A stretch of 64,000 nucleotides of DNA from Artocarpus heterophyllus (Eukaryota; Streptophyta; Magnoliopsida; Rosales; Moraceae), in contig JAJQZP010000045.1 of assembly GCA_025403435.1 (NCBI GenBank), forward strand, positions 558,001-622,000, read 5' to 3'. The position numbers were made by a program, and so were the translations under genes. Below, in pieces: positions 7,794 through 58,300 of the stretch; positions within the stretch are counted from its first letter, which is position 1, and each line of letters opens with the position of its first letter. Under the pieces are notes generated by a model. That model had not been told where the DNA came from. It saw only the letters and a list, made by a program, of their open reading frames with translations, and ran no database searches.

Positions 7794-10700
7794 TCAAAAC
7801 GAGGACACTTCTGACCGAACAAAGAAGAGACCTGAAGGGCCGTCATTTGGCAGCAATGCTAACCTTACCGAACTTGCAGCACCTTCTTCGACAGATAAGA
7901 ACCCCGTGTTGAAGTTTATGTCTGTCTTCACAAAGCCAGGGCAGACACAGTTAATGAGAAAATTAGGGTGCTTCTTGGCCAGAATTCTTGTGTAAGCATT
8001 CATGGCAGCTTTTGAGATGGTATACGCAGACAAAAAAGTTGGCCAGCCTTTGCTTTCTAATGAGCCTTCTTTGAGATCTTTCATAAACTCTCTCAGAAAG
8101 TCCTCTATTTTATCCTCCGTTAGGCTTTCAGCATCACCAAGAACATTTTTAGCCCAATCATTTGATATCCTCTGAAAAAAACAAGACAACAAGTAGTGGC
8201 TAATTAGAGACTTTATCCCTGGAGTTCTTAAAATCTTCGCAAGTTTCCCATGTGTTTTCGATGGCTTAACCTAAGTAGATGAACCTTTTTTAGTACTCAT
8301 TGATGTGTCGTCTTTTTAAACACTAGTCAATGAAATAATGGCGGCAACTCACAGGACACTTCAATTGGCATGAAAAAGTATAGACAAAAGTTGAAATCTC
8401 TAGCATTATTTGTTAACCTAACTGTCAAACCATTGAGAAGCTAGAAGATCGTCCATATTCGTAATCTAATAAATAGCTCGATGTAAGATTAAAAAAGCTT
8501 CTCAGCACACTAATAATTTATTTGTTAAGGAAGCTACATAATAGCTCGCCAAGTTGCAATACCTCTAACTTTCCCGCGGCTGATGAAACATTGACAACCC
8601 TTGGTGAATCAGATAACTGGAGGAGAGGAAAAAGCGCTTCAGCTGTTCTTTTGGCACCATAGTAATTTATTTGCAGGCATTCTTCGGCCGATTCATAAGT
8701 TTGAGTCACTGTTCTGCTCACATGATCAGCTTGTTCTTGTGCCTTCATCAGCAGGAATGTATGTGTAAAATGTTAAAGATCTTAAATCTAAAAGATAGCG
8801 AAGGAAATTACACACTTATATAATGACAGGATAAGAATTTTCTTAAGACTATGCAATTTATGGATTACTAAATGAGAAAATAACAAGCTTATTCGGAAGC
8901 GTCACATTTATAACTGCATTTTACTGCAATTTAAAATTATATTAAAATCCTTTAGAAGATGATTGTTCTCTTCAAGCCTTTGAAAGTGGCCTTTTGTTAT
9001 TTTGCCCTTCACGGTAAGGCTTTTATTATGTTTATAAGATCCCTATTTGAATAAAAACAACAACAACAATAACAACAATATTAATATTAATATTAATATT
9101 AAGGGTCGATCTCGTTGGCACCCTTGAAGTTTGGAGTCATTTTTGGTTTGTCCCTTAAACTTTAAAAACCCCTACTTTACTTTTTGGATTACACTTTTAG
9201 TCCCACTTAAACCTTTCTCTTAGAATTTCACATAAAATTAGGCTAAATCTATTTATTTTTAACAGAATTTCTAATTGGAAGGTCACGTAATCACTTTACC
9301 CTTTTTTAGTATGATTTTAACAGAAATTCTAACCAAAAAAGTTAAGTGGAGCTAAAATCAAATTTAGAGACAAAGTAGGAGTTTTTAAAGGCAAACTAAA
9401 AACGACCCAAAGTTTAGGAAGCACCAGTAAAATTAATCCTCCTAATATTTCTACTACTATAATAATAACAATAATAATAATAAGTTCGTTGTTTGCATGT
9501 TTATAGGAAAAGAAGTCACTTCTCAAAGACTAACCCCATTAGAATTTAGTATAGCTAAAAATGTATCAATATCGGCTCTGCTAGCTCCCGTCCCTGCATT
9601 GTTCACCTGCACAAAGTTAAAAAATAAAATAGAATAAAATAAACAACAACAGCAGCAGCAGTTCCTTCTGTTAGGAAACCCTATTTTTAAGTGGTACGAG
9701 TCTACACTGCAGTAAAATATAACATGGTAAATGGCTTGCTATCTAATTCTTCCAAAAGCTTAAAGAAAAATAGCAGAGAAATTGTAATAAATGTTACTAG
9801 CAAAGTTTGAAAATATTTATAGTTAATAACAACTTTATAGTATGAATAATTCTTACTATATTATCAATCTATTATTTACTATAAATATTTTCAAAATATG
9901 ATATTTACTTTAAAAAGTTGTAAAAATAAGCTATTTCGCTTATTCTCCCCTTAGAGTTGTTTGGATATTGACCAATAATAGTTTTAATTTTACAAAAAAT
10001 ACACAATATGGATTTTTTTGAGAATGGAGTTGAAATATATAAATTTTTCTTTTTAGAAATATTACGAATAGCAAAATTATATAATAGTTATTATAGTACT
10101 ATTCACATTTTATACTACAACAAATACAGTAATTATTTTAATAATTTTATTTTTAGCTATTTATAGAATATTTCAAGTTGTTTGATATATTCAACACGAC
10201 TAGTAAACTTCTGTTATATTTTTTACTTGGGAAAATTTCATAAAATGTCTCTTATGAGCACATCTTATTAAAAATACCCTTCTTTTTTTGACTTTTTAAA
10301 ACTACTCTTTTAAACTTTATTTTTTAAAATTTAATTTATTAATTAACTTTTTTATCCTGATTCAAAAACCAAATTAAAAAAACCCTAACCATAATTTTTC
10401 TTATTTCTCTCTCTACTTTCTCTTTCAGTCTATTCCTATATCTCTCTAACTCCTCTGTTTATCTCTCTCTCTCCAGATTCTTTCTTTCTCTCTTCTCGTC
10501 TCTCTCCTATTCTCTCCTTTTTCTTTTTTCTCACATAAACCTGATCACATATGCCCAACTGGATCCATCGCCGGCACTAGCATGAAAGCAAATCTGTTGT
10601 CTCCACGCCCATCCACAACTCCAAATCCTTTAACTTCTTTGCTGTTAGATCACTGGCCGCCTTACCAGATCCTACCTAATCATCGCCGCCTTGTCGTTGA

Positions 10701-13377: not shown

Positions 13378-15068
13378 TTTCGAGCTCGTTCTTATATAGA
13401 CCTAAATTCAAACTCTTTTACAAATAATATTAAAATCTTCTAATATGTGTCATCTTAACTTTCTCAAAAATCTAATAATAAGTCTTCTCTTTTAAACTTA
13501 TTTATAGGTGTCTCAGTTCCTTATTCACTCTATTTATACACATTCTCTTTCACAATATAGGATTACATCATTTTTCAATTAAAATTAAACTTTTTTTTTT
13601 CTCTAACCACTATTTGCAAGATTGGCTTCAGATCTATGACTTAACACATTCCACCAAAAACAAACCAAAAAGTGAGGGAGAAGAAGTCAGGTAATGCTCT
13701 AACTCATCTACGTTGACGTTTATCTTTTTTTTATTCTTTTTTCTGCTGAATAAAAGGTGTGATCATGTTGATGTTGAGCCACGTGCAGATAAGAGTGGAT
13801 ATTCGCCTCCCTGATCTTTTTATCTTATAAAATTTTATTTAAAGTTGAATTCTACCCCTCTAAAATAATTCTGACCCTTCTCCCCCGAAATTGATCTTTT
13901 TATCTTATAAAATTTTATTTAAAGTTGAATTCTACCCCTCTAAAATAATTCTGACCCTTCTCCCCCGAAATCAATTTCGCCTCTCATGTATGTAGTGACC
14001 TTTCTTTCTTTCTTTATTTCTTTCTTTTTTTTAACCAGTGAACTTTAGTTACGATCTCATAATTATAGGAAAAGGAAAGGAAATGACGTGCTAAGAGGAG
14101 TTGGGAGAGAAAAACGGAAATGCTGCAAATCTCATAAATTGTAGGAAAAAAATAGGAAAATATCAACATAATAAGGAGCAGTCACTAATTGGCTCATGCA
14201 AAATCTTTGTTTCCGTATCTTAAAAACGACAACAACAACCACCAATAACTTAAATGTGAGAGGAAAAAAAAAGTGGGAGTGACACCTTCGTAAATAAGCT
14301 TAAAAAAAAAAAAAAAGAAGCTTATTATTAGATTTAGGTGAATTTGCTTGAAAAAGTTGAGATAATATGTGTCAAAATATTAGACTAATATTTGTAAAAA
14401 AGTCCGAAATAGAGTTTGTATTTAACACTGCCCATATATATATATATAGCAATTCTATGGGTGGCCTTATGGCAATCAACTCTGTTTCCAACCTAAGAAA
14501 AGCCAAAAAGGCAAAATTTTGTGAACCCCTTATTCTGATGTATTTTGGACAAGACATCTCGATTCTACATTCTAAGGACAAAAAAAGAAACAAAAGAAAC
14601 CCGAATGGGGAAACAAGATTTTTAGTTCATTTACATGTTATAAGTCCATTAGTCTGCAATCTTAAAATCTAATTTGGAATAAAATTTAACTATAGGTTTA
14701 GATATTACCAGGATATCAAGTTTCCCGAACTGGGTCTTGACAAAATCTGCCAAAGAAGCGATGCTAGTAGGATCTGCCACGTCTAGCTGATGAAAAAATA
14801 GTTTATCAGAGAGGCCTTTCTCTTTCAATTTCTCAAGCGCTTCAACACCCCTTTTCACATCTCTTGCTGTTAAGATCACAGTAACTCCATTTGAGGCCAA
14901 CTGTCTAACTGTCTCAAATCCAATTCCCTTATTTGCCCCTGTCACAACAGCATATCTAAAAGAAAAAGAAATAAAATAAAATATATGAATCACCAAAATA
15001 ACTAAAAAAATAAAGCCAGAAACAGAGTAACAAACTGTTAGCTACCTTTCTGTACTAGCTCCTGACAT
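7794..15068 (-). CDS. Short-chain dehydrogenase/reductase, neomenthol dehydrogenase / carbonyl reductase type
   Basis: Five exons on the minus strand splice into a 299-aa protein: 15068-15046, 14955-14709, 9606-9535, 8742-8563 and 8171-7794 (stop TGA at 7796-7794). All introns are GT/AG and all phases close. What is seen: the Rossmann cofactor motif TGANKGIG (residues 13-20), VNNAG (91-95), the catalytic serine region NVSS (165-168) and the active-site YTISK (Tyr224, Lys228), with the long insert between Ser and Tyr and the C-terminal FVRSEVSSF typical of the plant SDR114C group. Family members reduce carbonyls with NADPH (menthone, salutaridine and aldehydes are known substrates); the substrate here cannot be told. 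The start MSGASTER lies in a 23-nt coding exon. Exon 4's acceptor (AAG) is the least certain junction. Intron 2 is 5.1 kb and intron 3 is 0.8 kb, both swollen by foldback elements. Confidence 0.9.
9101..9443. mobile_element. Foldback MITE in SDR intron 3
   Basis: The two ends are imperfect inverted repeats of about 120 bp: the left arm (GGCACCCTTGAAGTTTGGAG, then CCCTACTTTACTTTTTG) matches the complement of the right arm (GGTGCTTCCTAAACTTTGGG, then CTCCTACTTTGTCTC). It is non-coding and flanked by AAC/AAT/TTAATA-type microsatellites (about 9056-9100 and 9448-9482). The class cannot be assigned without a transposase. Confidence 0.65.
10235..11850. mobile_element. Non-autonomous TIR element in SDR intron 2
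   Basis: The left end (CATAAAATGTCTCTTATGAG, then CTTATTAAAAATACCC) matches the complement of the right end near 11790-11850 (GGGTATTTTTAATAGAG and the following GGGGATATTCTTGTGAG). Between them are a CT-rich stretch (10400-10520), a GC-richer block without an open frame (10550-11050), and three diverged copies of a ~110-bp unit containing GGTTACAAYCNGAYNCC (about 11330-11650). No transposase is visible. Confidence 0.5.
12228..12685. mobile_element. Foldback MITE in SDR intron 2
   Basis: The left arm (TGTCTCACTTTGCCCTTCTA) matches the complement of the right arm (ATCTTACTTTGCCCCCTTAC) near 12630-12660, with further matches inward (AACCCCTTTAGTTAATC against the complement of GTACCACTTTAAGG). 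It contains no credible gene; the 77-codon frame at 12362-12595 has no recognisable domain. Confidence 0.5.
12950..13380. repeat. TA microsatellites and T-rich low-complexity DNA in SDR intron 2
   Basis: TA dinucleotide runs occur at about 12959-12975 (followed by TATG repeats) and 13345-13371, with long T tracts between them. The long ORFs here on both strands are low-complexity shadows. Confidence 0.6.
13812..13971. repeat. Perfect 80-bp tandem duplication
   Basis: An 80-bp unit beginning TGATCTTTTTATC and ending CTTCTCCCCCGAAAT occurs twice in direct succession (13812-13891 and 13892-13971) with no difference seen. It lies in intron 2 of the SDR gene. Lack of divergence implies a recent slippage or unequal exchange. 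Confidence 0.9.
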
Positions 15069-17300: not shown

Positions 17301-20300
17301 TCACTTTTGATTAGAAAGATCAATTCGTGCTTCAAAATGGTCTAATCCTGTTCTACTTTGCTCATTTTTACTCCTTAGGATTGAAACCTGAAATAATAAA
17401 TTGTAAATTATGTTATGGTTCTTGCAGTCTTGTTAGAGATCAATGTGTTGACAAATAAAACCACACAATGCAGCACTTAATTTTGTAGGTTGTCATAAAA
17501 CTGAAAAACTCCCCACTTCGTAGCACTTAATTTCATGTGTAATATATGCATTCATTCATAAAAAAAAGAGTGAAACAACTATAAAAGTGATGGAACAAGG
17601 ACAGACAGATAACTTAGTAACAACTGGTTTTCAGAGTGCAGTGAAGATTGTGAAAGCAAAGCTATACCCTTCTACCTATCACAGGGCTCTTTTTAGTCAA
17701 GCTAACATCATGGAACAGCCCTGCTGCCATCTAAATCATGGCATTGATGATCATTTCCAATAATAATTCTTGATGGATCTCCATGTGTTGATTTAAATCC
17801 AAATTAAGCCACAGACAAAACTATCAAGTGAACTTTCTTTCTCAAGAAGAGAAACTGAAAAGGAGATAAAATAACACAGGTAGATTACGACTGAAAAAGT
17901 ACCTTGGGCCGCTCCATAGAGCTTCCAAAATAGCCTATTCCAAAGGATAAAGAAGAATAAGCAGCCGCCATCTCTACAGCTTTCAGCTTTAGAGAACTTC
18001 CCGAAACCTAAAGCAAGATCTGCTATATCAGTTTTTCTAGACAAGCTAACATAAAAAAGCTTCAGTCAGGACAGGACTTGGGAACTCACCACAGGAGTGT
18101 CCGCTTGCACGAGTAGAATACCAGCACTTCTGTCAGTACCATTGTGATTGCTGTCTTGAACAAAAGACCTTAACACTTTCTCGCAAGATGAGGCAGGACC
18201 AACCTGTGAACTGTGTTGTATAAAGCTGTGTTAGCTATATAAATCGTATATCTTTTGTGCTCTCAGGCATATTTTTTGTTCCAAAAGTTGCTCTCTTCTA
18301 AGAACTCAACTTAAGAGATGGAGAGTAGCTATCTTAATACTAAATACTCAGTCTAAGGGAAGCATGCATGTCGTGAAATCAATGAAGCTAAACAATACAT
18401 GGATGAAGAGACAAACATACATGGATGAAGAGACACAGCACTCACGAGCGGCAAATCCTTTCATTAAATATTCACCAGCACCACTTACACAACAGCCAAC
18501 TATAAATGGAGCTCCAAAAGGGCCTTTAGAGGATGCCCGACAACCTGAACCATAAGTTGCTGCTAATCCCACACGTCCTCTGACCTGTACTTTTTTAATT
18601 ATAAAAGAAGAAATGTAAGTTTTCCAAAACAGATGCTAACCAGAATAGCAAAATTATAACCCATTACCTTCAGAGCAATTCCCCCACTCGAGGCCCCAGA
18701 TGCTATATGTCCTTCGGTGTCAACACAAATCACTCCGACCGTGTCCATGACACAATATTCTTCAGGCACACCCCTTTTTGACCGATAACATGGTTGAGCT
18801 TCCTTTTCTAACATGCAAGTATAATAAGTGAAAGAAAATATCAGTTCAATAATTTTTATAAATAAGAAGCTCGCCGTATCAACCATCAAACGACAAATAG
18901 AACAAGCACAAATTGTTGGAAGGACAAAGGCTTGATAAGAAAAAAGTTTAGCAGACACCAAACCAAGAAAACAATATAGACAACGACCTTGGAGAAGACG
19001 ATATGTCGCCAAGCTATTCCTAGGTCAGGAGTCAAGACTCAGCATAGCACACAAGTAGCATATTCTAAATGTAGAGATTGGTGAGCTAAATAATATTTCC
19101 TTTTACCAGAAAAAACAAGACATGCAAATTAATTTTCAGTGAAAAAGAGTTTACTGCTAAACAATGATGCAATACCTAACTTTTCAGCAGTCTCTTGGGG
19201 ACGACTTTGATGTTCAATAGATGAGTTATCGATCTTGGCTTTAGCATCACTGATCATCGCTTTGAATTTTTTCCATTGCACTTTCGCCCTTTCAGTCACC
19301 AGCCACTGTTTCAAGACAAGCAAGATCAATGGATAATACTCAGACATAGGAGTAAACCTCCTATAAAAATGAAACTTTAACATGTTATAGAATATATCTC
19401 AATAACACAAATTTTATTAGCATAAATTCTCATAAAGGAAAAATATAGAACTAAACAAATGGCTCAGAAAGTTAGGAAAGATATTGTATAAGGACGAACC
19501 TCATCGGCCTCTTTTGCAGTTGCCAGGACAGCGATACCCTTGGACTTTGCCCATTCATAGGCACCTTCACCAACCAAGAACCTAGGTAACGGAAATTTTC
19601 CCTATGAGAAAAGCTAAGAAGAGTATATAACGATAGGGATGCCTATGCGTTTGTTATTTGCAAGCACACAAGATGTCATTAGACAAGTAAACATTGATTC
19701 TTTTTTCTTTTTCCTTCATTGCCCGTTGGTTCTATTAAAGTTTCAAATAACTAATGTATGCAAAGAATTAAAGGGATGACATGAAAATATCAGATAGAAA
19801 AATTTACTTCAAAAAGAAAAAAAAGAATGGCAGCTTTTTAAGTCATACACAAAATTGTTTGAATGGAATCAAATTAAATATGGGTGTGAAATATACAAGA
19901 ACCAATCCTATAACTTTTCAAGGGACATCAATAAAACAACAAAAGATAATACAAAAATGATTTAATAGAAATTCATAATCGTCCAACAAATTCAAAGGGA
20001 GGAGCAGTCATTACATGGGAGGTATTAGGCCCAGCAAAGAAGGTCCCATAATTTGCTCCTTCAACAATAAAGCAGCAATCTGAATGGCATTTTTCATGCC
20101 TGGTCTAGAGCATATGCAGTGGATGTTCAGTAACTTTATAAAAAAGTTGTGTAAAGAATAAATATGAGATATCCAACATATTGACATAATAAAAAAGACA
20201 GACCAGTTACTACAATAACACAAGGATATTGTTATTCACAGTAAAGCATGAAATAATTCAGCCATGAGATTACCTGGAACCGCTCCGATTGCTCCAAATG

Positions 20301-48917: not shown

Positions 48918-49696
48918 GTTATAGATTCTGGAGCCACTAACCATGTTTGTGTTTCTTTATAGGGGTTCAAGCAAACGAGAAGCATGTTGTATGAGCACTT
49001 TACATGGTGGATGAGCAATAGAACCTTAGTATTGGTTGAAGCAGTAGGAGATGTCCATCCTTGTTTTGATTATTCTAGGAGTTTAGTTTTATGAGATTGT
49101 TTTTATATTCCTAAGCTTAAAAGGAATTAAATTTCTGTTGCTTGTTTGTTTAAAGATTCTTATTTAGTTTCTTTTAGTAATAAAGTAGTAATTCGTAAAA
49201 ACAAATCTGTTATCTATAGTGAATGGATGCAAAATAATATATATTTTATCAAACCAAAGTTATACTCACTGCTGAACATTGAGATTAATAATAACTGTAA
49301 AAAGGTTTAAAACTTCTTTCTCTAATAAAACTTATCTTTGACACTTACACTTTGGTCATATTAGTATAAATAGGATTCAAAGATTGGTAAAGGATGGACC
49401 TTTAAACCATTTAGAGATGAAATCTATACCACAATGTGAGCCGAAGGGGTTCTAAAACTTGTGCATAGTAATATTTGTGGTCCTATGAACATCAAGGCAC
49501 GAGGAGGGTACAAGTGTTTCGTCACTTTTATTGATGACTGCTCAAGATATAGGTACGTTTACATTTATGCATCATAAGAGCAAAACTTTTGACAACTTTA
49601 AGGAGTTTCAGTGGAAGTAGAGAAGCAATTAGGTAAAAACCTATAAAAACACTTTGTTCTGATTGAGGTAGAGAGTACCTCTCTAATGAGTTCTTA
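48918..49696 (+). pseudogene. Copia protease and integrase 5' part
   Basis: The frame opens with VIDSGATNHVC (48918-48950), the copia protease active-site region with its DSGA. It continues through the GAG-pre-integrase region (HLHFGHISINRIQRLVKDG near 49340) to integrase NICGPMNIKARGGYKCFVTF and IDDCSRYR near 49480-49550. Stops interrupt it, and it is cut at 49696 by the insertion of the minus-strand element. Confidence 0.82.
49692..49696 (+). repeat. Target-site duplication TCTTA, left copy
   Basis: TCTTA precedes the TGTAACGC terminus at 49697 and recurs at 57891-57895 right after the other LTR's CA terminus. Confidence 0.93.
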
Positions 49697-51662
49697 TGTA
49701 ACGCCCCTATGTGGGGGTTAACAGTTTTTAATGAGATAAAATAAAAATAAATAATAAAAGTAAAACCTTAAAAATAAAATTTGCCCGGGACTTAAATGAA
49801 AACTCTCAACTCAAAAATAAAAATATAAACGATAAATAAACCACAGTTTTAATGTAGCACCTTAAATTTAATAATATAAACTGTTGTCATCATCATTTTA
49901 ACCCTCAACACATTATAATACAGTCACAGAAAGTAACAATTGATGCTTACATTATCATGAAGAACATTCTTTACAATTGAGCAGTCCCAATGTAATATAG
50001 TTACATCACTTCCTCAACTATATTTCTCGTAGCCACCTCACACTTAGTGAGTCCTGAAAAGATATAAACATAAGGGAATGAGCAACACTATGCTCAGTAG
50101 AGAAAGCCATTACTCACCTCTATCATTACCACATTAAAATCTGCATGGTCAGTAAGTCACATCATATTCCAGATTATGGGGTTTATTATGATCACATCTT
50201 ATGGATACCGTAGTTAATCATTACCAAGTGTCATAATTACACATTTATACAAATATTACCAATCATCATTGTTCCTAGGTATCCATGTTAAATTGAGTAT
50301 CACTCAACTCATCGAAACCCAAATGGGCGCACTTGATCACCCTATAAACATTCCAAGGGTGTTCCGGTGAGGGGACATCAAGCCCCGAGTCCTCACCAAA
50401 TCGATTCCTGTACAGTGTGTTCTGGGACTTTCAACCCAAGGAAGCGTCATCGCCTTCCCCCTATTTTACCTTTTAGGGTATTCATGCCCAAGGACGTAAC
50501 CGTCGCCCTCTTCATGTCTCACAATTTCTCTATATTGAATCATTATCAATAGAGTTAGTTTTCCTAACCATGCTTCTCAATTTATAACATGTGTAAATTC
50601 ATTATGTTCCTCGCCGTACAATACAAGACGAGTCCATGTCATAGTTTCATATGTGATAATCATATAATATCAGTTCAACATAGATATATATATATTGCGG
50701 CAAAACAATCAATTTTAATTCTATAAAAACCTCACAAAAGATGAGTAATAGAATCCCTACCTTTTAAGCTTATCAACAGTCTCTTAATCCTGGAATCAAT
50801 TAACGTTAGCTCCATACTCCCTTGATCCTAAGGCGTGCATAAGGACAATTAAAACTAAAGCACAACATACAACTACATTCATAAAATTTATTTTAATTTA
50901 ATCTTAGAATTTCAAGAAATAACCACTGCCCATAGAGGTATTATAAAGTTTAACAATATAAATTTTCTGTTTAGGGCATATACACTTAGACTTCATACAT
51001 ATGCTCCAAAATAGCAACAAACATATACTTAGGTTTAAGAACGCAAATTTGAATAATCCTTTAGTATAAAAGAAAATTTATAAATGAAAGACTAAATTTG
51101 TTCATAAGATTCTAACCTCGGATTATGGTTAGTTGGAAGCTTGAAATGGCTTCAAAACAGGTTCCTTTACTTCGGTATGACTGAAATTCTTGCTCAAATG
51201 GAGGTGATGGTGGCTGATTTTTATGGCTGCCTTGAAGAAGTTCTCTAAGTATTTTGCTTCAGCAAAGAAATGAGAAGAAGAGTGTGGGAACCGTGGAAGA
51301 GAAAGGAAGAAAAGATGAAGTCTTTGAAGAGAAGTGATAGAAACAATTATAGAGGAGACATGTTGAAGCATGTCACGGAGGAAATAAAGAAAATGAGGGT
51401 CAAGAGTAGTTGGAAAAGATATCCTTATGTCTCATCTAAAGACTTTAACACACATAATGCCAATATGACATTTTTGAGATTTATTAGAAGTTCTAAGGCT
51501 TTTTAGTAATCATACTAAATAAATATAAGAGAATTTTAGAAAACTTAAAAATAGATAAAAAATAAATATTATAAAATAAATTTAAATGAAGCAATTTTTT
51601 TTTATACATTAAAAATTAATTTAATTACCTCAATACCCGTTAGGAGAATAACGGGTGTCACA
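49697..51662 (-). repeat. 3' LTR of the young element
   Basis: It is 1966 bp and identical to the 5' LTR except for one T in the run near 51595-51603. The LTR has no credible protein; its ORFs (for example 51129-51371 minus, 51270-51506 plus) are perfectly repeated in both LTRs but have no recognisable domain. Confidence 0.95.
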
Positions 51663-51676
51663 GCTCTACCCCCCTT
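51663..51676 (-). other. Polypurine tract of the young element
   Basis: The minus strand reads AAGGGGGGTAGAGC directly before the 3' LTR. This is the expected plus-strand priming site and fixes the orientation. Confidence 0.88.
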
Positions 51677-52617
51677 AAAGAAATTTCGTCCTCGAAATTT
51701 CAATTCTAGTAATACTAGTAAAAATTATGATTCCACTATGATTCCAATTCTGAGTCTAAACCGTTAATGTTGTTTGTCCTCCAAATTTAAATTATCGTAT
51801 CTCCACTTATTTACTTGCATAATAAATCTTACTCCTAAATCCCTCAATGAGAGTATTTCTGACAAGTTTCAACTTATAACACCGTATAATAGTCTAAGAA
51901 TCTGATCAGGCATACATATTGACCATATCATGATTCCAGTCCTTCATTGTCCATGGACCGTGATTTACAATCACATTTAAGGAGATTGCCAGAGAAATTT
52001 TATATACTTCATCTTTAGGTTCCTTTTCCTTTTTGAGTAAGGAAAAGTCAAATATATTTGATTTCATACCTCAACTAATAAACTAAAACATAATCATAAA
52101 ACATATATCACAAACACTTTTATTCAAAACTATACATTAAACTTACTCATAGAGATATTAAACGGAATCTCAGAGTTGCAAACATACCCGACATATTTTT
52201 CATTAAACAGCTATCCTCATGACACAAACATTCAACCCAAATAATATACTCATATTTCATATGGAATATCCCCATAACTGACTCTGGTACTTCCACATAA
52301 TATTAACAGAATATTACACATTACAAACATAATACAGATACGTTTCGAGAGTGCAAGGCACTCCGTATACCAGCTATCCATATCATGCATGCTTAGAGGA
52401 TACAAAAACATCGATAAACAAAAGATCGGACCTTAAGAAGGATGCGTTTCGAGAGCATCAAGTACTCCGTATCCAGCCATCCCGGCATTAGGCTCAATGA
52501 ATCTAAAAGATTGAACAACGACGTACCACAAGAAACGCAGAATACAAGGCAAACGGTTATTCGTAACACACGAAATACGGACACACATGCCTACATGCCA
52601 AAGATAAAACAAAAAGA
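51677..52617. other. Non-coding 3' region of the young element
   Basis: No open frame of note. A diverged repeat pair of the block TTTCGAGAG...CTCCGTAT occurs at about 52340 and 52446. The stretch separates the LOG-like stop codon from the polypurine tract. Confidence 0.5.
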
Positions 52618-53268
52618 TTACAGATGGAGATTCAAATCAATTGGCCGCTCTCGGCTTTCCCTTTCCCATTCAAGCTTGGATGTTGCAGTGTCGGATTCTG
52701 GATGTATGATTTGCATTTTATCTATCAATTCCTCAGCTGTTGAAGCAGTGACAAAGATTTGTCTCTCCGATTCTGTAGTGATGTTTTCTTCCACAGCGTA
52801 ATCTAGAAATTTCAAAAGACCGTCATAAAAACCCTTTACGTTCAGCAGTCCCAAAGGTTTGGAATAAAAGCCCAACAATTGCCCACAAGCAACTATAAAT
52901 ATTTCCTCAAGAGTACCTAGACCACCAGGTAATGCTATAAAAGCATCAGAATTATAGATTATGTCTTTAAAATTTATAGGGATACTCCTGACTCCTTCTC
53001 CCTTACCTATGGCTTCCTTACAAAGGTTTCCTTCAACTGGAATATGAGGCCAAATTCTTACATCAGTAGCGTCGCTAGACCTAGCTGCTAGTGCCATATT
53101 TACCATCATTTTTATACTACCACCCCCATAGATTATGTTAATCTTCTTGCGTGCTAGGACTTGCCCTAAGTGATTTGCAGCTTCTAAATAGGCTTTATCT
53201 TTTCCAAGGCTGGAACCACAAAAGACACAGACATTCTTTATTTTCTTCGTGGACTGGGAGGTAGACAT
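52618..53268 (-). CDS. LOG: LOG-like protein (cytokinin riboside 5'-monophosphate phosphoribohydrolase family), retrotransposon cargo
   Basis: An intronless ORF of 216 aa from ATG at 53268 (the frame stays open 13 codons further up, but without an ATG). LOG enzymes release active cytokinin bases from their riboside monophosphates. What is seen: the N-terminal VCVFCGSSLGKD (13-24), YGGGSIKMM (47-55), PGGLGTLEE (114-122, with catalytic Glu122), KPLGLLNVKGFYDGLL (137-152) and the plant-type SKLEWE near the C-terminus (197-202). The family hallmark GGGSVGLMG is altered, and the MHxRK segment with the catalytic Arg reads INFKD (98-102). The protein ends IDLNLHL, an EAR-like LxLxL pattern. Host LOG genes have several introns, so this is a processed capture. 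It lies 645 nt after the Cys-rich ORF, in the same orientation and with no stops. Enzymatic activity is doubtful. Confidence 0.88.
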   Translation of the reverse strand: MSTSQSTKKIKNVCVFCGSSLGKDKAYLEAANHLGQVLARKKINIIYGGGSIKMMVNMALAARSSDATDVRIWPHIPVEGNLCKEAIGKGEGVRSIPINFKDIIYNSDAFIALPGGLGTLEEIFIVACGQLLGFYSKPLGLLNVKGFYDGLLKFLDYAVEENITTESERQIFVTASTAEELIDKMQIIHPESDTATSKLEWERESRERPIDLNLHL

Positions 53269-53912
53269 ATTTGGTTTATAGAAGTGGTTGCTTAATGTCT
53301 GCTCCACTTAGACTTCGGGTTCTATATGAGATTTTAAAGATGAGAAATATACAAAAAGGGCTAAAGAGATAGACGAGTAGGTAATGAAAAGGTAATCCAA
53401 AGATTTAAACAAAATCTTGTGCGGATAAGAAAGTAAGATAAGGTGATTGATAGTTTACAGAAAATCTGATTCACTTTTTGAAAAAGATTAGACTCTAATT
53501 GTATAACTTTTGACAATTGAGAACAATTCGACAGAAGACCCTCATGACACGACTGTAGACTTTTTGACAAATATACACCAAGTCTAGAAATTTAATATAA
53601 ACGACAAATACTGTAGAACTTTTGAAATTTGAGACACAATCTTGAAATATCTGGATAAGCTTTTCAAAATTCAAACATATTACTGTACCGTATGTGACGT
53701 GTCTGATAAGATAATATATTTTATTATATATATGTATTTAAGAAAATCATAAATTAAATAAGATATTAACACTTACTGTATCAATCTAATAATCACAATT
53801 ATTTCAAACACAAAAGCAAATATTCTGAGAAAAAGAAAAACACAAACTGTTGAACATCAGCTAAAACTGCTTCAAATAAGCAAAGACTAAATAACCTTTA
53901 TAGAGCGATGAC
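53269..53912. other. Spacer between the two cargo ORFs
   Basis: AT-rich. A 69-codon minus frame at 53570-53361 has no recognisable domain. No splice signals of note were judged. Confidence 0.4.
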
Positions 53913-54434
53913 TTATTCCCCATCCAGTTTTCTTATGGCTTGACAAACAGGATCTAGAAATACCATATTCCTGAGGCGTTGTCTTTCTGTATAAAATTTA
54001 GGCCAGAGTTTAAAAATAGCTCCTTGAACATATCCACTAGGGTGACCGTGGAGAGGAGGATGGATGCTATCCAAGTTCTCCTTTGAAAGTCCATCCCTAC
54101 AAAACCTTATTTTATCCTCTCTATTCGTAGACATATAACCAGGTGAAGTACATTTACCGTTACAATTTTGTCTTCCACATTTGTTACAAGTGACCACGAT
54201 GGCACGAGCTCTTCTTTTCATTGCACTACGACTGGTACCCGTTCCTGGTAAACCGACATCTTGACTAAAGTCACTCGGACGGATTTTCCCCTCTATTAAC
54301 ATTCTCACATCACAAGGGATACCAAAACGCATAAGAATCCACAACCGAGTAATTCTAGCCTTATATTTCTTTCTGAGAATCTTTTGGGAGAGTGATGGGA
54401 AATACTTTCTCAGGTGTTGGTACTTTGGGTCCAT
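53913..54434 (-). CDS. Cys-rich basic protein resembling flexivirus nucleic-acid-binding proteins, retrotransposon cargo
   Basis: An intact intronless ORF of 173 aa (ATG at 54434). What is seen: a basic N-terminus (residues 1-30), a hydrophobic segment RLWILMRFGIPCDVRMLIEG (30-49), a Gly/Ser-rich GTGTSRS (64-70), a basic cluster KRRARA (73-78), and a compact finger C83-x2-C86-x4-C91-x3-C95, followed by ~78 residues without clear motifs. The order of hydrophobic helix, GTSR, arginine-rich patch and zinc finger is that of the small cysteine-rich nucleic-acid-binding proteins of carlavirus-type plant flexiviruses, which act in RNA binding and silencing suppression. The cysteine spacing is tighter than I recall for that family, and the protein is longer. 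Origin from a virus is therefore likely but not proven; a plant zinc-binding protein is the alternative. It comes first in the element's sense direction. Confidence 0.7.
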   Translation of the reverse strand: MDPKYQHLRKYFPSLSQKILRKKYKARITRLWILMRFGIPCDVRMLIEGKIRPSDFSQDVGLPGTGTSRSAMKRRARAIVVTCNKCGRQNCNGKCTSPGYMSTNREDKIRFCRDGLSKENLDSIHPPLHGHPSGYVQGAIFKLWPKFYTERQRLRNMVFLDPVCQAIRKLDGE

Positions 54435-55903
54435 GATGAGATGAAAGAAGAGTAAATAGAAAGGAAAAATTAAGATAGTAAATTGCAGAATCCTAGAATT
54501 CCTTCTTCTTTTAGAAGAAAAGAAAAATTTCTAATGAAAAAGAAGTGGATTTGCGATTTAGAGAGAAAATAACAAATTAAGAGAGAAAAAGTGAACTCAG
54601 AGAAATAAGCTCCTATGCACAGTAAACGTATATGTAAACAATGATTAAACCACTGTATATGACACGTATAGAGACCACGTGGGAGAGACAGTGTGAATCA
54701 AACTGATTTAAGATTTGAACTAGGCCCAAATGTTCTAAGTTGAAAATGGTCAGGTTGTTTCGGGCCTTAACACATTTGGAACGAGTTAAATAACAAACAT
54801 AAAATTGAAAACCAATTCGTATGAATCTTAAACCCAATTCAAAGCCCACTATAGATAAAGTTAACTATAAACAACAAATCTAATTTAACGACAACAAGGA
54901 TCTTCTTGAATGATATTTAAAATCATTTCATAACAACATAATCTTCCAGCAACTCAAATAATTTTGTTTTAATCAAAACCTTATTGAACAATACATACAC
55001 CTATATGTTATTCATAATACTTAACATCTATCAATGGATTCATCATCATTACTACCAAGGGTTTAGAATGCGACTAACCTTGAAATCAATACGATTTACG
55101 TCTTCCAACATAGACCATATCAATGAACAAAGACACTTGATGTTACTACTTAAGAACATCTACAATCCCCACAATTCTACTCATACAATATATAATTTCC
55201 TCATATAACAAAACCTTAGGTAACCAAAAGATTCACTGATACACTTAAATACAATGTACGTAACGAAATATTCCAATTTTGAGATTCATGCATTCTAGAC
55301 TTTACACAGTCTCAATAGACCAAAAGTCTAACATTTATCTCTCTCAAGATTCAATACCATGATTCCCAACTTATATCATATTCCTCAAATATATAGAACT
55401 TTTAAGAAAAGACATTGACACTTATGTGCTCCATCGAATCCACACATAATCATTACTTAGGTTTGAATCAATTACGAAAAATTTGGCATATCTATGCCAA
55501 ACTTTAAAATCAATAAATCAAGCCTTATATTTCTTATTGTTTTTCACGAGACAAGAGGCTATTAAATCCTCTTATCTATACGAATTTCTCATCGTTTATA
55601 CGAATTAAATATGCTTATAGATCCAAATATTATACGAATTTCTCATAAGCATTCTACTTATAAACTCATTCCATATAATTATCATTCTCTTATAACTATT
55701 AATACTTTCCTTCTACATAATTATTGTACTCATATAATCATTAGTATTTTCATTCTATGGCCTTTCCATGTTACATCCTTCTAGACTGTATAAATCAATG
55801 TGAAGGTTCATTTTGATGATGACAATAAAAATTCAGCTTCAAAACCATCTCAAAAATATATTTTTTTAAAGTGGTGCTACACTCCCTAGGTTAACCGAAC
55901 CTA
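54435..55903. other. 5' untranslated region of the young element
   Basis: About 1.5 kb between the primer site and the first cargo ORF, without recognisable gag. Near 54661-54682 the DNA has an ACGT-core cluster (see separate entry). The stretch just above the ORF's ATG is CT-rich on the minus strand, like a plant 5' UTR. Confidence 0.45.
54661..54682 (-). promoter_or_regulatory. G-box / ACGT-core cluster upstream of the cargo ORFs
   Basis: The palindrome CCACGTGG (54675-54682) and TACGTGTC (54661-54668) lie about 230 bp above the Cys-rich ORF, with TATA-like sequence (CATATACAG, ACATATACG) just downstream. Such elements bind bZIP and bHLH factors in plants. This may be a promoter captured with the cargo; function is inferred only. 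Confidence 0.35.
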
Positions 55904-55916
55904 GGCTCTGATACCA
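55904..55916 (-). other. Primer-binding site of the young element
   Basis: The minus strand reads TGGTATCAGAGCC, seven bases inside the 5' LTR. It is a perfect match to the common plant primer site complementary to initiator methionine tRNA. Confidence 0.93.
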
Positions 55917-55923
55917 AAAATTC

Positions 55924-57890
55924 TGTAACGCCCCTATGTGGGGGTTAACAGTTTTTAATGAGATAAAATAAAAATAAATAATAAAAGTAAAACCTTAAAA
56001 ATAAAATTTGCCCGGGACTTAAATGAAAACTCTCAACTCAAAAATAAAAATATAAACGATAAATAAACCACAGTTTTAATGTAGCACCTTAAATTTAATA
56101 ATATAAACTGTTGTCATCATCATTTTAACCCTCAACACATTATAATACAGTCACAGAAAGTAACAATTGATGCTTACATTATCATGAAGAACATTCTTTA
56201 CAATTGAGCAGTCCCAATGTAATATAGTTACATCACTTCCTCAACTATATTTCTCGTAGCCACCTCACACTTAGTGAGTCCTGAAAAGATATAAACATAA
56301 GGGAATGAGCAACACTATGCTCAGTAGAGAAAGCCATTACTCACCTCTATCATTACCACATTAAAATCTGCATGGTCAGTAAGTCACATCATATTCCAGA
56401 TTATGGGGTTTATTATGATCACATCTTATGGATACCGTAGTTAATCATTACCAAGTGTCATAATTACACATTTATACAAATATTACCAATCATCATTGTT
56501 CCTAGGTATCCATGTTAAATTGAGTATCACTCAACTCATCGAAACCCAAATGGGCGCACTTGATCACCCTATAAACATTCCAAGGGTGTTCCGGTGAGGG
56601 GACATCAAGCCCCGAGTCCTCACCAAATCGATTCCTGTACAGTGTGTTCTGGGACTTTCAACCCAAGGAAGCGTCATCGCCTTCCCCCTATTTTACCTTT
56701 TAGGGTATTCATGCCCAAGGACGTAACCGTCGCCCTCTTCATGTCTCACAATTTCTCTATATTGAATCATTATCAATAGAGTTAGTTTTCCTAACCATGC
56801 TTCTCAATTTATAACATGTGTAAATTCATTATGTTCCTCGCCGTACAATACAAGACGAGTCCATGTCATAGTTTCATATGTGATAATCATATAATATCAG
56901 TTCAACATAGATATATATATATTGCGGCAAAACAATCAATTTTAATTCTATAAAAACCTCACAAAAGATGAGTAATAGAATCCCTACCTTTTAAGCTTAT
57001 CAACAGTCTCTTAATCCTGGAATCAATTAACGTTAGCTCCATACTCCCTTGATCCTAAGGCGTGCATAAGGACAATTAAAACTAAAGCACAACATACAAC
57101 TACATTCATAAAATTTATTTTAATTTAATCTTAGAATTTCAAGAAATAACCACTGCCCATAGAGGTATTATAAAGTTTAACAATATAAATTTTCTGTTTA
57201 GGGCATATACACTTAGACTTCATACATATGCTCCAAAATAGCAACAAACATATACTTAGGTTTAAGAACGCAAATTTGAATAATCCTTTAGTATAAAAGA
57301 AAATTTATAAATGAAAGACTAAATTTGTTCATAAGATTCTAACCTCGGATTATGGTTAGTTGGAAGCTTGAAATGGCTTCAAAACAGGTTCCTTTACTTC
57401 GGTATGACTGAAATTCTTGCTCAAATGGAGGTGATGGTGGCTGATTTTTATGGCTGCCTTGAAGAAGTTCTCTAAGTATTTTGCTTCAGCAAAGAAATGA
57501 GAAGAAGAGTGTGGGAACCGTGGAAGAGAAAGGAAGAAAAGATGAAGTCTTTGAAGAGAAGTGATAGAAACAATTATAGAGGAGACATGTTGAAGCATGT
57601 CACGGAGGAAATAAAGAAAATGAGGGTCAAGAGTAGTTGGAAAAGATATCCTTATGTCTCATCTAAAGACTTTAACACACATAATGCCAATATGACATTT
57701 TTGAGATTTATTAGAAGTTCTAAGGCTTTTTAGTAATCATACTAAATAAATATAAGAGAATTTTAGAAAACTTAAAAATAGATAAAAAATAAATATTATA
57801 AAATAAATTTAAATGAAGCAATTTTTTTTTTATACATTAAAAATTAATTTAATTACCTCAATACCCGTTAGGAGAATAACGGGTGTCACA
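55924..57890 (-). repeat. 5' LTR of the young element
   Basis: It is 1967 bp, identical to the 3' LTR apart from one extra T in the homopolymer near 57822-57831. As the 5' LTR it should drive transcription leftward across the two cargo ORFs. Confidence 0.95.
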
Positions 57891-57895
57891 TCTTA
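57891..57895 (+). repeat. Target-site duplication TCTTA, right copy
   Basis: It matches 49692-49696; copia integrase sequence resumes immediately afterwards. Confidence 0.93.
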
Positions 57896-58300
57896 ATACA
57901 CTTAACTGCGCTTGGAACTTCGCAATAGAATCACGTGGCTGAGAGAAAAATAGGACCTTGTTAGAGATGGTTAGATCCATGATAAGTGACTCTACATTGC
58001 CATTATCATTTTGAGAATATGCCTTACAAACCACATATTATCTTTTGAGCAATGTGCCTTCAAAATTGGTATCTAAAACTCCTCATGAGTTGTGGACGGG
58101 TAGGAAGAACTCTTTAAATCATATTCATATATGGGAATGTCCTACTCATGTCCTGGATAAGGAAGCAAATAAGTTAAAAGCATGTTTAGAGGTTTGTGTG
58201 TTTATAGAATATCTAAAAGGGACAAAATGAGGTTATTTTTATAACCCAAAGAAAATAAAGTCGTGGTCTTTACGAATGCGACATTCCTTGAGGAAAGTTA
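57896..58300 (+). pseudogene. Copia integrase 3' part
   Basis: The frames give RTLLEMVRSMISDSTLPLSF (with stops nearby), then MSNVPSKLVSKTPHELWTGR and LNHIHIWECPTHVLDKEA (58045-58230), the closing region of plant copia integrases. It directly continues the coding sequence broken at 49696. Confidence 0.8.

Follow-up and report, generated by a model that had tools for sequence, protein, structure and literature searches.

The window, a stretch of 64,000 nucleotides from Artocarpus heterophyllus (contig JAJQZP010000045.1, positions 558,001 to 622,000), contains an intact long terminal repeat (LTR) retrotransposon at 49697–57890, whose sense strand is the minus strand. This element belongs to an abundant and recently active family of non-autonomous carriers, in which a gene for a basic Cys-rich protein (CRP) and a LOG-like gene are linked in every copy examined. 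The CRP–LOG pair is an older retroelement cassette that is also present in other element families of the same genome. In the copies examined, purifying selection is strong on CRP and weak on LOG. We think it probable that a non-autonomous LTR retrotransposon without replication genes keeps an accessory cassette, consisting of CRP, the LOG-like gene and tandem RNA hairpins.

A recently active family without gag and pol

The element has paired LTRs, TG..CA ends, a 5-bp target site duplication (TSD), a primer binding site (PBS) and a polypurine tract (PPT), as is expected of an LTR retrotransposon (Table 1). Its flanks read TCTTA-TG...CA-TCTTA. Directly after the 5′ LTR the sense strand continues with GAATTTTTGGTATCAGAGCC, which contains the PBS in the context GAATTTT-TGGTATCAGAGCC; we take this PBS to be of the tRNA-iMet type. 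What could not be found are the gag and pol open reading frames (ORFs) of an autonomous Ty3/gypsy or Ty1/copia element. CRP and LOG are the only sense ORFs of more than 100 amino acids in the 4261-bp interior. A tblastn search of the element with the gag and protease proteins of another host element (L065, see below) and with the combined ribonuclease H (RH) and integrase (INT) protein of a gypsy contig (L001, see below) gave no match at E≤1; no other gag or reverse transcriptase (RT) query was run. The boundaries, near-identical LTRs, TSD, PBS, PPT, the two open sense ORFs and the missing gag and pol had all been described in a sequence-only reading of the window, and all of them were re-derived.

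The host assembly that we searched has 334 contigs and a total of 985 Mb. With the LTR as query, 846 first-look candidates were obtained; the best 40 were scored and 13 further LTR pairs were fetched from those 40, which makes 14 copies including the window. Neither CRP (522 nt) nor LOG (651 nt) has an indel in any of them, and the frame is open in all 14 copies for CRP and in 13 for LOG. Perfect 5-bp TSDs, at different loci, flank all 13 testable copies (L016 was cut). The two LTRs of a copy have no substitution in 9 of 13 pairs and at most 3 in 1967 positions. Because the same arrangement of PBS, PPT and TSD recurs in 13 other copies, the structure is not a product of chance. A CRP protein query of the host gave 5822 first-look candidates, and all 150 that were scored are identical over 173 amino acids. 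At all 30 loci picked by CRP, LOG follows 639–649 nt downstream; it is intact at 28 and has indels at the remaining two. A recently active non-autonomous family with both genes had been proposed from the letters of the window, and the copies bear this out: within those examined we see neither a single chance capture nor ORFs that are degenerate elsewhere.

By eye, the flanks at 49400–49696 and 57896–58200 resemble the integrase region of an older Ty1/copia element, hence the window element looks like a nested insertion. At another copy (L015, G000:C26:11895000-11904260) the fetched stretch starts inside the LOG of a further copy, whose 3′ part ends at 595 of 955. The LTR of L015 begins where this other copy stops, with the TSD AAAAG: one family member has inserted in another.

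Selection on CRP and LOG

Among the 14 copies the leader has a mean distance of 0.026 and 1.59 indels per kb per pair, and the spacer between the genes has 1.52 indels per kb per pair. Mean distances are 0.0114 for CRP and 0.0099 for LOG, without indels in either. The LTR distance of 0.0079 is biased downward because the copies were picked by LTR. CRP variants in the 14 copies are synonymous in 14 and nonsynonymous in 8 cases, where 79% nonsynonymous changes are expected (p=1.8e-5; ratio of nonsynonymous to synonymous polymorphism, pN/pS, 0.098). For LOG, 42 copies (two indel-bearing loci dropped) yield 22 synonymous and 42 nonsynonymous variants, a ratio of 0.39 (p=0.017). Variants found in at least two copies are split 9:3 between synonymous and nonsynonymous in CRP (p=9e-5) and 11:13 in LOG (p=0.009). 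All these tests assume that variants are independent and take no account of mutation bias. Between the window and L053, a member of a second subfamily, the ratio of nonsynonymous to synonymous divergence (dN/dS) is 0.15 for CRP and 0.27 for LOG.

One could also argue that the ORFs are passengers, and that a few master copies have spread too fast for the ORFs to decay. Near-identical LTRs, with three substitutions or fewer per pair, would agree with this hitch-hiking, as would the broken LOG seen in one of the 14 copies and at two of the 30 loci. It is nevertheless very improbable. Although divergence between copies reaches 2.5% in CRP and 3.6% in the leader, variants in CRP show the 14:8 excess of synonymous changes, and over 91 pairs of copies there is no indel in either gene, compared to about 1.5 per kb per pair in leader and spacer. 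Selection and the absence of indels in the 14 copies led us to reject passenger ORFs.

An older cassette shared with other retroelements

A foreign CRP query uncovered a second subfamily (L053 and L054), in which LOG follows CRP in the order and on the strand seen in the window. Amino acid identity to the window is 75% (L053) and 73% (L054) for CRP and 62% for LOG. In L053 both frames are open, and GLMG as well as the Arg discussed below are retained in LOG; in L054 both genes are broken. In the LOG tree, from which two long-branched rows (P0122 and P0114) were left out, the window LOG and L053 are grouped (100/100) away from the canonical LOGs, a split with values of only 92/97. The window LOG and CRP each fall into clades with members from several plants.

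Another carrier, L065 (G000:C4:25718165-25727442), is a 9.3-kb unit between two LOGs of the class found by a foreign LOG query. It starts with the PBS TGGCGCCGTTGCCGGGGA, which we assume to be Athila-type, followed by gag (PF03732, 1e-22), protease (PF13650, 5e-6), CRP and then, by position, LOG; an RT/RH/INT ORF was not found in L065. Its CRP has 57% amino acid identity to the window CRP, and the frame is broken in this copy. A gag of the L065 type lies upstream of LOG, on the same strand, at 29 LOG loci, at 26 of them at a distance of 4446–4657 bp; this position comparison took in 120 of 150 LOG and 46 of 106 gag matches. The even spacing suggests one pol-less architecture at these loci, of which only L065 was read through. 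A blastn comparison of the window element with L065 finds CRP only, and no similarity in LTR, leader or 3′ part. Membership of the window element in Athila was considered and rejected, given the different PBS (TGGTATCAGAGCC compared to TGGCGCCGTTGCCGGGGA in L065) and the lack of a common LTR or leader by blastn. That the element belongs to the Tekay chromoviruses is only our suspicion from its PPT and LTR ends.

In L001 (DAIEQH010000041.1), a contig of 3.3 kb that evidently comes from a plant, an integrase is followed by CRP. This plant-type gypsy contig is binned in a Candidatus Nomurabacteria genome, likely a contamination of a public metagenome-assembled genome. Outside the host, LOG P0067 and CRP P0149 have the same longest contig size (8723) and are perhaps encoded on one contig; this is suggestive only, since short sizes also coincide by chance.

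The term “transducing”, used in the sequence-only reading, implied a fresh capture. That LOG resembles a host enzyme and CRP a viral protein would fit a single capture of a host LOG and an integrated carlavirus gene by the window element. Yet the clades of both genes span several plants, and both genes occur in at least two other element families of the host in the same order. A cassette common to other families contradicts a fresh capture; we rejected it and find it barely credible.

Alternatively, the window element could be the product of a recent internal deletion in an autonomous gag–pol–CRP–LOG parent with the same LTRs. The parent would still mobilize it, and the low pN/pS would be a memory of the parent's selection. 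Such parents are plausible because CRP follows pol in L001 and the host has a gag–protease–CRP–LOG family; the weak constraint on LOG would fit as well. However, the searches described above revealed no remnant of gag, protease or INT in the element, L065 is similar to it by blastn in CRP only, and the nearest other subfamily seen is at a synonymous divergence (dS) of about 0.9–1.1. Furthermore, LTR pairs as similar as these imply that most differences between copies would have arisen in active lineages already without gag and pol, and CRP nevertheless changed mainly synonymously. We consider the deletion rather unlikely.

Table 1. Features of the retrotransposon in the window (positions in the window)
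Feature	Position	Strand	Remarks
5′ LTR	55924..57890	-	1967 bp
3′ LTR	49697..51662	-	1966 bp; differs from 5′ LTR only by one T in a poly-T run
TSD copy TCTTA	49692..49696		
TSD copy TCTTA	57891..57895		
PBS TGGTATCAGAGCC	55904..55916	-	identical in 14/14 copies
PPT TTTAAGGGGGGTAGAGC	51663..51679	-	precedes 3′ LTR; identical in 13/14 copies
Leader	54435..55923	-	1489 nt; 40 ATGs; no gag found; most variable region among copies
CRP	53913..54434	-	173-aa basic Cys-rich protein; Viral_NABP/Carla_C4 relative; pN/pS 0.098
Spacer between CRP and LOG	53269..53912	-	
LOG-like	52618..53268	-	216 aa; PF03641; conserved Arg lost
RNA hairpin motif copy a	52437..52485	-	common to element L065
RNA hairpin motif copy b	52331..52384	-	common to element L065

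Elsewhere in the window, 7797–8267 and 14652–15041 on the minus strand look like exons of one or more short-chain dehydrogenase genes (PF00106; the first just under the cut-off). An exon at 18602–19024, also on the minus strand, has an asparaginase-type match (PF01112, 30.4 vs 27 bits).

Proteins, hairpins and what the cassette may do

Judged by its sequence, CRP is probably a relative of the nucleic-acid-binding proteins of carlaviruses and other betaflexivirids. PF01623 is the precomputed label on 14 of the 15 closest relatives of the window CRP, and the CRP of L001 scores 34.2 bits on PF05515 (cut-off 23). Like the CRPs of carlaviruses and trichoviruses (PF05515/PF01623), the window CRP has a basic stretch and then a Cys cluster; unlike them, it is encoded by a retroelement. 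A C-terminal module, NREDKI...HPSG...KDPVCQ..RKLDG, is kept among the plant relatives and may be a further difference. A profile search found 855 proteins, and the best 120 include proteins from Populus, Xanthoceras, Acer, Hibiscus, Rhamnella and Orobanche. The three best folds for the predicted CRP model in BFVD are betaflexivirid proteins (E 0.35–0.74, none significant). They come from Cherry mottle leaf, Cowpea mild mottle and Helleborus mosaic viruses, and two carry the name RNA silencing suppressor. In viral contigs searched with CRP and LOG, no relative is encoded in any matched stretch.

The second protein clearly belongs to the LOG family (PF03641, 77.4 bits, cut-off 27). The PGGxGTxxE motif is present as LPGGLGTLEEI in 41 of 42 LOG copies, and the best solved relative is At2g37210 (E 7e-43). 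P0016, a protein that stands for 12 publicly available contigs, perhaps from the same species, differs from the window LOG at one residue, and among the best 120 of 5283 relatives LOG is multi-copy in Populus and Xanthoceras. A catalytically competent LOG needs the conserved Arg of the MHxRK motif. The window family does not have it: Asn replaces this Arg in 42 of 42 copies, whereas canonical rows and most mobile rows have R. In addition, 40 of 42 copies read GGGSIKMMV, compared to GGGSxGLMG in relatives. Because of these two changes activity is doubtful, and the window LOG may not be an active cytokinin enzyme. In the predicted model (mean predicted local distance difference test score, pLDDT, 75.8; predicted template modelling score, pTM, 0.76) most of the core is confident, and residues 79–86 and 89–97, directly before the lost Arg, are poorly predicted. 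The lost Arg and the changed motif weaken the sequence-only suggestion that the element spreads a cytokinin-family enzyme.

Two tandem hairpins follow LOG on its 3′ side in the window (52331–52485) and in L065 (sense about 395–510). Their internal loops are similar (GCUG... / ...UYGAAACG), and their outer stems covary. In the four sequences 96% of the stem cells are paired, compared to 33–64% when slid, and 9 of 52 cells have changed on both sides. The case for the structure rests on this covariation, because the folding z-scores of the four sequences range widely (0.07, −2.98, −2.11 and −1.10). An Rfam scan of the element gave one match, below the gathering score, and none at the hairpins.

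How could such an element persist? Gag and Pol from an autonomous element with matching ends would package, reverse transcribe and integrate its RNA in trans. CRP, to go by its kinship, would bind nucleic acid and either dampen small-RNA silencing by the host or escort the element's RNA. Retention of protein genes by a non-autonomous element would need cis-preference or a benefit at the level of the cell; if CRP acts mostly on its own RNA or its own cell, then copies with a good CRP would spread best. Given the lost Arg, the LOG-like protein could be a nucleotide-binding or cofactor protein or a changed enzyme, rather than a normal cytokinin-activating enzyme. With 40 ATGs ahead of CRP (33–40 in the four copies counted), plain scanning is unlikely, and both proteins would be expressed from internal promoters or through splicing. 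A G-box, CACGTG, starts at 54681, 247 nt upstream of the window CRP; 12 of 14 leaders contain CACGTGG. Finally, the cassette would be modular and have come to sit between LTRs of a different lineage, because the gag–protease carrier has a different PBS and leader.

Several observations weigh against a cassette that is kept by an element without replication genes. An autonomous helper with the window's LTR ends was not found, in a search that scored only the 40 nearest copies and is blind to a partner whose LTR is more distant. The host does have gypsy frames as long as 1788 amino acids (86 scored of 19549 candidates), and by eye, among the matches listed, none of the 86 pol matches adjoins a CRP or LOG match. 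The 14 copies were chosen by LTR similarity and hence are young, and the 150 identical CRPs, taken from the top of a ranking, are no census. Coding sequence is not alone in being poor in indels: in the 14 copies there are 0.32 per kb per pair in the 3′ part. LOG is under weak constraint; one of 14 copies has a stop, and 2 of 30 loci have indels. The window CRP scores below both Pfam gathering cut-offs for Viral_NABP/Carla_C4 (16.3 bits, cut-off 23; 13.0 bits, cut-off 20.9), its model is weak (pLDDT 73, pTM 0.37), and its fold matches are not significant. Lastly, one window hairpin folds no better than shuffled sequences (z 0.07).

Large retrotransposon derivatives (LARDs) and terminal-repeat retrotransposons in miniature (TRIMs) are non-autonomous and non-coding elements without gag and pol that keep LTRs, PBS and PPT intact and are mobilized in trans; LARDs have long LTRs. 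The window element is similar in that no gag or pol was found and LTRs, PBS and PPT are intact. It is not a LARD, since its interior codes for two genes under purifying selection.

A LOG (YgdH) domain has been reported in LTR-retrotransposon consensuses of two Citrus species and Populus (PMC9289625, citing Steinbauerova et al. 2011), thus LOG-family domains in plant LTR retrotransposons are in print. The passages of that paper that we read mention no carlavirus-like CRP partner, no carrier without gag and pol and no selection test for these elements. The paper also describes orchid Ty3/gypsy elements with an ORF for an ALKBH5-like N6-methyladenosine (m6A) demethylase (PMC9289625). There, too, an accessory RNA-related protein is kept over several replication rounds and related domains occur in plant viruses. 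The orchid ORF is a different gene, additional to a Gypsy-type family, whereas in the window element no gag or pol was found. A broad survey of extra retrotransposon ORFs used a minimum of 250 codons (PMC6317226), and ORFs of 173 and 216 codons would therefore have been missed. No paper that links a carlavirus-type nucleic-acid-binding protein or CRP to retrotransposons was found by title or abstract start in the open-licence PMC literature.

It is possible, although we advance this tentatively, that plant retroelements share a movable accessory cassette (a virus-type silencing suppressor CRP, a LOG-like gene and tandem hairpins) that passes between lineages. An element without gag and pol would then be kept alive by its cassette in place of replication genes, as a parasite of the copying machinery that contributes counter-defence. 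The CRPs of betaflexivirids and retroelements would be of common ancestry, with one derived from the other by capture.

Non-autonomous LTR elements are commonly viewed as non-coding hitch-hikers. Here, an abundant and recently active non-autonomous element encodes two proteins without a role in replication that are under selection, and one of them is probably kin to viral silencing suppressors. The family therefore provides a testable case for retrotransposon-encoded counter-defence in plants and for the movement of genes between RNA viruses and retroelements. It also bears on the question why retroelements of several plants took up LOG, a family of hormone enzymes.

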